Shown here: piece after piece, positions 3,875-6,781 of the stretch
How the letters are laid out: every line of letters starts with the position of its first letter
Position numbering within the stretch: the stretch's first letter is position 1
From: Deltaproteobacteria bacterium RIFOXYA12_FULL_61_11
Lineage (GTDB): Bacteria > Bdellovibrionota_F > JAHFAK01 > YA12-FULL-61-11
Direction of reading: 5' to 3'
NCBI GenBank assembly: GCA_001799195.1
Contig: MGSU01000222.1
Coordinates: 1-7,341, forward strand
Length of the DNA stretch: 7,341 nucleotides
Translations under genes and position numbers: made by a program
The notes under the pieces: model-generated
What the model saw: the letters and a program-made list of their open reading frames with translations, nothing else
What the model was told of the DNA's origin: nothing
Databases searched by the model: none

Positions 3875-4813
3875 TCAGGAGCTTTCCGCTTGCCGAACCT
3901 GCTCGCCGCTCCGACGCTGCCACGAGGGAAGAATACGCTCCTCGAGGAACTTTTCGATGCGCAAGTTGATCAATTCCGGGTACTCGACATAGGCAGCATG
4001 GCTACCTCGGCGAAGCACCAGCAGCTCAGAGCCGGGAATACGCTCGTGCATCAACAGGGACTGAGCCAGCGGAGTGAAGACATCGTCTTCGCCGGCTATG
4101 ATCAAGGTCGGGACCCGGAGGTTGCCGAGCTCATCAGCAAGACTGTGCGTCCGCATATGCTTGGCCATGGTTATGAAAGTGCGGAGATCCATCTCGGCGA
4201 GCATGGTCATGTAATGATCAATCGCTTTCCGCTCCGAGAGTTGCCAATTGACGAAACCGAGGACCTTGGCCACCGGGAACCCAAAACCGTATTGGACCGC
4301 GCTGCGTAAGAGTTTCCTGGCCACGTGCTCAGGGGTTGGCGAGGTCAGTTCGAAGAGCTGCAGCAGCCGGTCGAACTGGCGTTCGAAAAAGGCTGAATTG
4401 AGAAAGGTCTTGAAAGGATTTTCATAGGTGCCGAAACCGGTGATGAGGCCGAGAGTCCGTTCGGGAAAACGGTGGGCGAACTCGAGACAGACCTGCACTC
4501 CCCAGCTATGCCCGATGAGCAGGGTGGTGTCGATCTTCTCGGCTTCGAGGATGGCCTCAAGATCGCCCATGATGTTATCTATGCCCATGGCCTCTGGATC
4601 CGCCGGAAGTCCCGAGCGATGATGACCTCGGTAATCCCAGAGGATGATGCCGAGCATGGACGAGAAATGAGCCACCAGATGGTTCCAGAAGGTGTCCATC
4701 GAACACCCGATCCCATTACAACAGACGAGCCACGGGCCGGTCCCGGTCCCGAGGATCCGGTAGCCGAGCATGGTCCCGTCATGGCTTACCAGGGTTCTAT
4801 CGCCTGCCTGCAT
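3875..4813 (-). CDS. alpha/beta-fold hydrolase
   Basis: A 312-aa serine hydrolase of the alpha/beta superfamily. Numbered from this start, the nucleophile elbow GHSWG puts Ser103. The acid is in AGEDDVFTP (probably Asp244) and the histidine in RRGSHAAYVEYP (His272). The oxyanion strand is WLVCCNGIG (28-36), followed by WDYRGHHRSG (59-68). A helical cap occupies about 130-220. The length is normal for the superfamily, but substrate is not predictable; esterase, lactonase, epoxide or C-C bond hydrolase activities are possible. There is no signal peptide, so it should be cytoplasmic. A GTG at 4867 would add 18 residues, but it has no ribosome binding site and the extra residues are arginine/glycine-rich. 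The ATG at 4813 has GAGGG nearby. Transcription may continue into the lipoprotein gene 105 bp downstream. Confidence 0.88.
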   Translation of the reverse strand: MQAGDRTLVSHDGTMLGYRILGTGTGPWLVCCNGIGCSMDTFWNHLVAHFSSMLGIILWDYRGHHRSGLPADPEAMGIDNIMGDLEAILEAEKIDTTLLIGHSWGVQVCLEFAHRFPERTLGLITGFGTYENPFKTFLNSAFFERQFDRLLQLFELTSPTPEHVARKLLRSAVQYGFGFPVAKVLGFVNWQLSERKAIDHYMTMLAEMDLRTFITMAKHMRTHSLADELGNLRVPTLIIAGEDDVFTPLAQSLLMHERIPGSELLVLRRGSHAAYVEYPELINLRIEKFLEERILPSWQRRSGEQVRQAESS

Positions 4814-4914
4814 ACGCCCTCGCCTAGGTGTCGTTCCTCCTGCTGCCCTCGACGATACTCTCGGCACTCAATGAAGACAATCCAAACACGAAGGGCCTGC
4901 TTTCCGAAAAGGCA

Positions 4915-4939
4915 TTATGCACAGCCTTGCTGTGGATAA
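4915..4939. promoter_or_regulatory. head-to-head pair of DnaA boxes
   Basis: TTATGCACA (4915-4923, plus) and TTATCCACA (minus strand, 4931-4939) both match the DnaA consensus TTATNCACA. They face each other across 7 bp. Counting one more base on each side, the arms match at 9 of 10 positions, so the whole 25 bp is a near-perfect palindrome. It lies about 100 bp upstream of the hydrolase start. Confidence 0.6.
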
Positions 4940-5186
4940 CTTTCCAACTCACTGATGCAGGATGAAAGCTTCTCGGGACCTAGCATACCCCTAGCCCGGC
5001 ACCCCTGGATTGGGGCAGCGGCATCGCGGAGCCACTCGCCCCCTTGTCCTATGGACGTCGCAGTGCAACTTTTCGGGCATCGTACCGTCTATCAATGAGC
5101 TGCGAGGTGACGATGAAATCCTGACCAATTCGTGAACCGTTCGAGATCGCAAGGATTTTACCTTTTCGAAGCAAGGAAAGTCGAGG

Positions 5187-5209
5187 TTATCCACAATTCC
5201 TGTGGATTT
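5187..5209. promoter_or_regulatory. second head-to-head DnaA-box pair
   Basis: TTATCCACA (5187-5195, plus) is a perfect consensus box. AAATCCACA on the minus strand (5201-5209) is a weaker box with the ATCCACA core. They face each other across ATTCC, giving perfect 7-bp inverted arms (5189-5195 and 5201-5207). A moderately AT-rich segment lies just to the left (5153-5186). Confidence 0.55.
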
Positions 5210-5580
5210 TCTGTTCGCGCTGCGACCTCGATTCCACGGGCCGCACCGGGATAATCATTGGGATCTGAGTGGTATTCTCGAGCATGAACACCAAGGCACA
5301 TCTAGGGGACACCGCACCCGAGAAAAGAAGAAAGAAGCGGGGGATCCATTCCCCCTTGGACCCCGAAAAAGTGGAGCAAACAGCTCACGACCGTAACCTA
5401 GTCTCCTGCCTTAAACCACCCAATAACACATTGAAAACAGCGTGCTTCACCTAGAAAGTCAAGTCGAGCCCCAAGTTCCCGCCGAGGAAGCAACTTTTCT
5501 CCCCCGATTTCCAAGCTCCGGACGAGGGTGCTGGGTTTGCAACCCGAACGGATACCAAGAACAACCTCCCAACGAATCTG

Positions 5581-5607
5581 ATTCGATTCCGAAAACCGGA
5601 ATCGAAT
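5581..5607 (-). terminator. perfect 11-bp hairpin after the Fic stop, no U-tract
   Basis: The arms ATTCGATTCCG (5581-5591) and CGGAATCGAAT (5597-5607) are exactly complementary around the loop AAAAC. On the minus strand the stem starts 4 nt after the TAG of the Fic gene. The following bases (CAGATTCGTTGGG) contain no run of T. It is a likely transcript 3'-end structure, but classical intrinsic termination is doubtful. Confidence 0.5.
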
Positions 5608-5611
5608 TGAC

Positions 5612-6781
5612 CTACCTGCCCGGCAGTTCCGTGCCGCGACTCATGATTTCGATATAGCCCGCGTAGCTGAACAGGCGGTTGCGTTTCTGGGCGGTCAGCT
5701 CCTTGACGATACCGAGCTGCTCTAGGTGGCTTAGCGCCTTGTTGACCGTGGCCGGGGTGATGCCGGTCTTCTCCACCAACGAGCCCGAGGTGGCGATGGG
5801 ATGCTCCATCAGTGCCCGGTGGACTTGGAGCGTGGATGCCGCCGCTCGGCCGAGGCCGCTGATCTTGTCACGGTCCTGGTTCAACAGGTCGAGAAGCTGC
5901 TGGGCCGTTTCCACAGCTTGGGTGGCGGTGACGATCACGGCCTCGGCAAAGAAATCGAGCCAGGCTTCCCAGTCGCCGGTCAGGCGCACGTTGTTGAGCA
6001 GCTCGTAGTAATACTGGCGGTGCGTCTTGAAATAGAGGCTGAGGTAGAGCATCGGCTCCCGCAGCACCTTCTGTTCGCACAGCAGCAGCGCGATCAGCAG
6101 ACGACCGAGACGGCCGTTACCGTCGAGGAACGGGTGGATCGTCTCGAACTGCACATGGGCCAGCGCTGCCTTGAGCAGCACGGGTGTCGGCTCCGGCTGA
6201 TCATGAAGGAAAAGCTCCAGCTTGCTCATGCACTCCAGCACTTCTTCGGCGGGCGGCGGAACGAAGGCCGCATTGCCGGGCCGGGTGCCTCCGATCCAGT
6301 TCTGGCTGCGCCGGAACTCGCCCGGGGTCTGATTACTGCCCCGGCCCTTGGTCAACAGCACCCCATGGATCTCGCGGAACAAGCGCAGCGACAGCGGCAG
6401 CCCTTCCTCCAGCAGGCGCAGACCATGGTCGAGGGCGGCAACATAGTTGCTGACCTCCCGCACATCATCCAGCGGCACGCCTGGTTCCTGATCCAGTTCG
6501 AACAGCAGCAGGTCGGACAGCGACGACTGCGTTCCCTCGATCATGGAGGAGAGCACCGCTTCCTTACGGACGTACATGTAAAGGAACAGCGAGGTGTCCG
6601 GCAACAGCGTCGAGACGCTGTCCAGCCGCCCGAGCGCCAGCAGCGCCTGATCGAACTTGCTGCGCAGCCCCGACGTCCAATCGATGAGCGGACGCGGCGG
6701 CAGCGGCGCGGGCACGAAGGCCTGGGCCTTCTCCCCCACCGCCGATATGGTCACATATCTGCCTTGGAGTTCTCGCTTCAT
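5612..6781 (-). CDS. fic: class II Fic family protein adenylyltransferase with C-terminal winged helix
   Basis: A 389-aa Fic protein that should transfer AMP from ATP to a hydroxyl side chain of a target protein. The catalytic motif HPFLDGNGRLGR (216-227) is intact: His216, Asp220, Asn222, Arg224 and Arg227. The flap region around IGGTRPGNAAFVPPP (163-177) is present. The N-terminal inhibitory helix carries SSMIEG (78-83), the (S/T)xxxE(G/N) motif with Glu82, so this is a self-inhibited class II enzyme. Residues 318-375 form a winged helix (LVEKTGITPATVNKALSHLEQLGIVKE, 335-361). The layout and length match Shewanella SoFic-like proteins. GAGG eight bases before the ATG supports the start. There is no adjacent small antitoxin gene, as expected when inhibition is internal. 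Upstream octamer repeats suggest autoregulation through the winged helix. The target protein is unknown. Confidence 0.93.
   Translation of the reverse strand: MKRELQGRYVTISAVGEKAQAFVPAPLPPRPLIDWTSGLRSKFDQALLALGRLDSVSTLLPDTSLFLYMYVRKEAVLSSMIEGTQSSLSDLLLFELDQEPGVPLDDVREVSNYVAALDHGLRLLEEGLPLSLRLFREIHGVLLTKGRGSNQTPGEFRRSQNWIGGTRPGNAAFVPPPAEEVLECMSKLELFLHDQPEPTPVLLKAALAHVQFETIHPFLDGNGRLGRLLIALLLCEQKVLREPMLYLSLYFKTHRQYYYELLNNVRLTGDWEAWLDFFAEAVIVTATQAVETAQQLLDLLNQDRDKISGLGRAAASTLQVHRALMEHPIATSGSLVEKTGITPATVNKALSHLEQLGIVKELTAQKRNRLFSYAGYIEIMSRGTELPGR

Follow-up and report, generated by a model that had tools for sequence, protein, structure and literature searches.

The 7,341-nucleotide stretch of DNA analysed here (the window), which is the entire contig C222 of a draft genome of 4,640,824 bases in 342 contigs (87% complete), carries in a gene-free gap three exact TTATNCACA DnaA boxes and one two-mismatch box, arranged as two facing pairs. 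Binding of DnaA at these predicted boxes is very likely, being well supported by the rarity of the boxes, by the conservation of such a pair in a genome of the same class, and by the recurrence of facing pairs near dnaA in other bacteria. As judged from the DNA letters, there is about an even chance that C222 is a non-coding control locus of the DARS type, or one that holds DnaA, and one of two in this genome, the other lying on contig C95.

The first pair consists of two exact boxes, TTATGCACA (4915-4923, forward strand) and TTATCCACA (4931-4939, reverse strand, then ACTT), separated by a 7-bp spacer and with a start-to-start offset of 16 bp. The second pair, 272 bp from the first, has the third exact box, TTATCCACA (5187-5195, forward strand), as its left arm, followed by the 5-bp spacer ATTCC (5196-5200) and the near match AAATCCACA (5201-5209, reverse strand), which deviates at two positions. 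The first-pass annotation of this DNA had placed three exact and one near match within 295 bp, in two facing pairs with 7- and 5-bp spacers, and these positions were reproduced. Its estimate, by base counting, of one exact match per 30 kb was too high, as the genome-wide count that it had called for gave 29 exact boxes, about one per 160 kb. Because the reversed-pattern control yields 31, the genome as a whole is not enriched in boxes. Three of the 29, however, lie within 281 bp on C222, the only contig with more than one, and the remaining 26 are spread one each over 26 other contigs. Dinucleotide-shuffled versions of the gap contain a mean of 0.01 exact boxes, none of 500 reaching the three observed, and a search of the genome for exact facing pairs (spacer 1-12) yields a single one, against none in the control. 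With one mismatch allowed, the box count of the whole window is unexceptional (30/200 shuffles); what stands out is the exact boxes and how they are arranged. At a stringency equal to that of the second pair, facing pairs arise at about 2 per 10^5 positions in a background of 172,776 positions of the same genome, among which none has a spacer of 5 bp.

The gap that contains both pairs extends from 4868 to 5611, or from 4814 if the gene to its left starts at an internal ATG, and its 744-798 bp are gene-free by the open reading frame list and Pfam, in line with the earlier description of some 800 bp with no convincing gene. To the left lies an alpha/beta hydrolase gene (3875-4867, reverse strand; PF00561, E=2.7e-18) with a likely start near 4813, and to the right a Fic-family gene (5612-6781, reverse strand; PF02661, PF13784), so that both flanking genes point the same way and there is no switch in gene polarity. 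Two weak, one-mismatch matches to the IHF consensus WATCAANNNNTTR are found in the gap, one between the pairs (5090-5102, forward strand) and one beyond them (5424-5436, reverse strand), against a shuffle mean of 0.52, with 20 of 200 shuffles reaching two. An Rfam scan of the gap returned no family at the curated threshold, and with nothing near that threshold a non-coding RNA was rejected as a reading; parS sites were likewise absent even with up to three mismatches allowed. At the DNA level, similarity of C222 to other genomes amounts to chance matches of 20-28 bases. The palindrome of the second pair (5189-5207) also scores weakly as a terminator-like hairpin, with TTTCTGTTCG after it on the forward strand, where no clear gene precedes it. 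At the contig end (7303-7341) an open frame begins with MATRTGTVHVVTTRR and resembles the start of an IS transposase, so a mobile element is the probable cause of the contig break.

A sister locus is found on contig C95. Of the 26 single exact boxes, the one at C95:13714 alone has a facing one-mismatch partner, forming the pair TTATCCACA-GGTGC-TGTTGATAA (C95:13714-13736), and a second facing pair, TTGTCCACA-GGTCT-TGGGGATAC (C95:13981-14003), one arm of which is a two-mismatch box, lies 267 bp away, compared with 272 bp on C222. A relaxed facing pattern matches these two loci only in the whole genome, and its reversed control matches none. Beyond the boxes, the C222 and C95 sequences come first among 344 comparisons when scored globally and are unremarkable when scored locally; this marginal similarity was not accepted as homology, and since the sequence between the pairs barely exceeds chance likeness, a shared architecture is claimed rather than proven common descent. 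The genes neighbouring the C95 locus differ from those at C222, its pair stands about 360 bp from a likely gene start, and the GC skew of the contig is mostly positive on either side of it.

The closest known geometry is that of the E. coli DARS sites. The core of DARS1, at bioD-uvrB, reads GTTATCCACT-ATTCC-TGTGGATAA-CCA-TGTGTATTA and that of DARS2, upstream of mutH, TTATTCACC-TTTTC-TGTGGATAG-AGT-TGTGAAGAA, with box offsets of 14 and 12 bp in both. The two share this spacing, with box I opposed to boxes II and III and DnaA molecules in head-to-head contact (PMC5742627, PMC8682772); of the three boxes, I and II are crucial, and full activity also requires III (PMC4585315). The second window pair, TTATCCACA-ATTCC-TGTGGATTT, has the same box I-II geometry as the DARS1 core TTATCCACT-ATTCC-TGTGGATAA, its arms standing at the box I and box II positions. 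In its extended form, GTTATCCACA-ATTCC-TGTGGATTT, it equals DARS1 in offset and in both the length and the letters of the spacer, and GTTATCCAC-N-ATTCCTGTGGAT is common to the two (21 of 22 bases), though the five spacer letters could agree by luck alone about once in 1000. The 14-bp offset recurs in three of the four facing pairs of the genome (the second window pair and both C95 pairs). Box III, expected in the direction of box II and 12 bp further on, is absent at all four, for which reason C222 is not filed as a DARS. The annotation's suggestion of a datA- or DARS-like site thus found its best geometric fit in the spacing and spacer letters of DARS1 and falls short at box III.

In its wider features the locus resembles DARS1 and DARS2 in being non-coding, in occurring at two loci per genome, and in its facing boxes I-II at 14 bp with a 5-bp spacer (PMC5742627). 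It departs from them in that C222 and C95 each have two facing pairs some 270 bp apart and no box III, in the 7-bp spacer of the first pair, and in the weakness of its IHF sites. The datA locus holds five boxes in about 1 kb together with an IHF site, and facing-pair geometry is a hallmark of DARS rather than of datA. As a non-origin cluster that could hold or inactivate DnaA, C222 is nonetheless comparable to datA and to the DnaA-box clusters of B. subtilis (PMC5295017). DARS sites have been described in E. coli itself and in beta- and gamma-proteobacteria related to it (PMC5742627); B. subtilis is without both datA and DARS according to a 2026 review (PMC13220808).

The comparison with relatives that the annotation had proposed was made with one further genome of the phylum, G001, which is of the same class and has the same kind of pair. 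Its single comparable site, TTATGCACA-GTC-TGTGGATAA-CTC-TGTGTATAG, lies in the gap between a LamG-like gene and an apparent valyl-tRNA synthetase gene and agrees with the first window pair in the order of its arms and in the letters beside them, TTATGCACAG..CTGTGGATAACT; its spacer is 3 bp, and a third box is offset by 12 bp, as between DARS boxes II and III. No dnaA occurs in the 12 kb read there. The dnaA-dnaN gap of G001, on another contig, has four boxes of no more than one mismatch each, a number reached in 3 of 300 shuffles, and shows a weak minimum of the skew; the origin of G001 is therefore probably at dnaA-dnaN, and the facing pair is probably not its origin.

Across 386 genomes surveyed, the pattern TTATNCACAG-N0-8-CTGTGNATAA is present in 16 and its reversed control in none, which indicates selection; both phylum genomes examined contain it, and two of the 16, besides the genome of C222 itself, have two such loci. 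Elsewhere, 4 of 14 facing-pair loci adjoin dnaA. Conversely, among the dnaA loci of named genomes, 19 of the 80 examined carry a facing pair (control 0), nearly always within 500 bp upstream of dnaA. Pairs linked to dnaA include some of GC-rich genomes, with as few as 2-5 boxes. A facing pair with an added third box is not specific to DARS, as 9 of 15 such places in other bacteria are next to dnaA. Four facing pairs far from dnaA on long contigs (G203, G179, G236, G034) lie in DNA of constant skew sign, so that a facing pair by itself marks DnaA binding and not an origin. The G203 pair (G203:C2:837168; L015:1501-1521) stands at the start of an apparent ribonucleotide reductase gene, with no skew switch, and is a candidate for DnaA control of nucleotide supply. 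Two related genomes show about ten exact DnaA boxes in less than 260 bp (L185, around 1501-1690; L186, around 1121-1384), with no dnaA in the roughly 3 kb read; these clusters are probable dnaA-unlinked origins.

That C222 might itself be a replication origin had been offered as an option from the start. As a chromosomal oriC moved away from dnaA, with DnaA filling the boxes, opening nearby DNA and loading the helicase, it is the main rival of the DARS-like reading, though the less probable of the two. As in the oriC of E. coli and B. subtilis, a cluster of consensus DnaA boxes occupies an intergenic gap, here the highest concentration in the assembly, and facing pairs also lie beside dnaA in many bacteria, as the 19 of 80 loci illustrate. 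Contig C65, which carries the dnaA gene of this genome, has no exact box and no cluster, so an origin at dnaA was rejected. The only dnaN of the bin, with gyrB and gyrA on contig C303, was also discarded as an origin marker: the first 6 kb (G000:C303:1-6000, L133) have 30% GC in a genome of roughly 60% GC, and C303 is thus almost certainly a contaminant. The genome's own dnaN is consequently missing, as is 13% of the genome, and the real origin may be missing from the assembly with it. An origin of the TTGTCCACA type, as in other GC-rich bacteria, was rejected as well, since the 16 copies in the genome do not cluster except at the C95 site. Against an origin at C222 itself, the gap has no AT-rich DNA unwinding element, its lowest-GC stretches being ordinary for the genome (25-55% of 740-bp pieces are as low or lower). 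The earlier observation that dnaA, gidA, rpmH and parAB do not adjoin the locus held in a Pfam search of the seven main window reading frames, and dnaN is likewise absent from them. The flanking genes share one direction, a sister locus of the same layout exists, none of the four comparable dnaA-unlinked pairs sits at a skew switch, and in G001 the near-match boxes and skew minimum are at dnaA-dnaN; C222 itself offers only 7.3 kb for GC skew. The missing AT-rich stretch, the sister locus and the constant skew at the comparable sites lower the probability of the origin option; the other part of that earlier proposal, a site bound by DnaA, is well supported.

A further reading, in line with the DnaA-controlled promoters that the annotation had also suggested, in which DnaA on the first pair regulates the hydrolase gene about 100 bp downstream, appears unlikely. 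The pair does lie ahead of the likely start codon, at a distance of 102-126 bp, and the G203 pair is found where an apparent ribonucleotide reductase gene begins, a class of gene under DnaA control in E. coli. However, the neighbouring genes differ at C95 and in G001, the distance to the likely gene start at C95 is about 360 bp, and the second window pair, 272 bp further off, would be left unexplained. That the boxes cluster by chance, or form a palindromic operator bound by a different regulator, is very improbable: the unremarkable count with one mismatch allowed would suit chance, yet the uniqueness of the exact facing pair against an empty control and the presence of pairs in both phylum genomes speak against it, and the varying spacers (7, 5 and 3 bp) poorly suit a dimeric operator. 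All readings other than the DARS-like, origin and promoter ones taken together have little probability.

The DARS-like reading draws on the only exact-box cluster in the genome and its sister of the same layout, on the 14-bp offset of three of the four pairs and the near-identity of the second pair to DARS1, on the third box that stands beside the probably non-origin pair of G001 with the spacing of DARS boxes II and III, and on the constant skew around dnaA-unlinked pairs together with the lack of an AT-rich unwinding stretch in the gap. The DnaA of this genome (L003:9252-10628) is in keeping with it: its DNA-binding signature, GGKDHSTVIHA, is canonical, and the residues aligned to the arginine finger and the AID-2 leucine of E. 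coli, as named in PMC5742627, are conserved. Its best relatives share 43-48% identity, and its Walker A lead-in is unusual, FIAAGSGLGKTHL where relatives have IYGGVGLGKTHL. Against the DARS-like reading are the absence of box III at every pair, the first-pair spacer of 7 rather than 5 bp, the two-mismatch arms at window position 5201 and in the second C95 pair, the mostly dnaA-adjacent occurrence of the three-box geometry, and the marginal likeness of C222 and C95 beyond their boxes.

If the DARS-like reading is correct, DnaA molecules on each facing pair would have their AAA+ domains turned towards each other, and head-to-head contact, as at a DARS site, would release ADP and allow DnaA to reload ATP, thereby setting the ATP-DnaA level ahead of the next replication round. 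In a minimal version, the loci would simply store DnaA, like the DnaA-box clusters of B. subtilis. The full proposal, that a phylum with few sampled genomes has two DARS-like DnaA-reactivation loci, each made up of two facing box pairs, is put forward tentatively. Should C222 be an origin instead, it would provide an origin candidate for this lineage. If reactivation does take place there, DNA-directed nucleotide exchange on DnaA would extend past E. coli and the proteobacteria related to it, and a rare paired locus with DARS geometry in a distant phylum would make directly testable the question of how DnaA is recharged in most bacteria.
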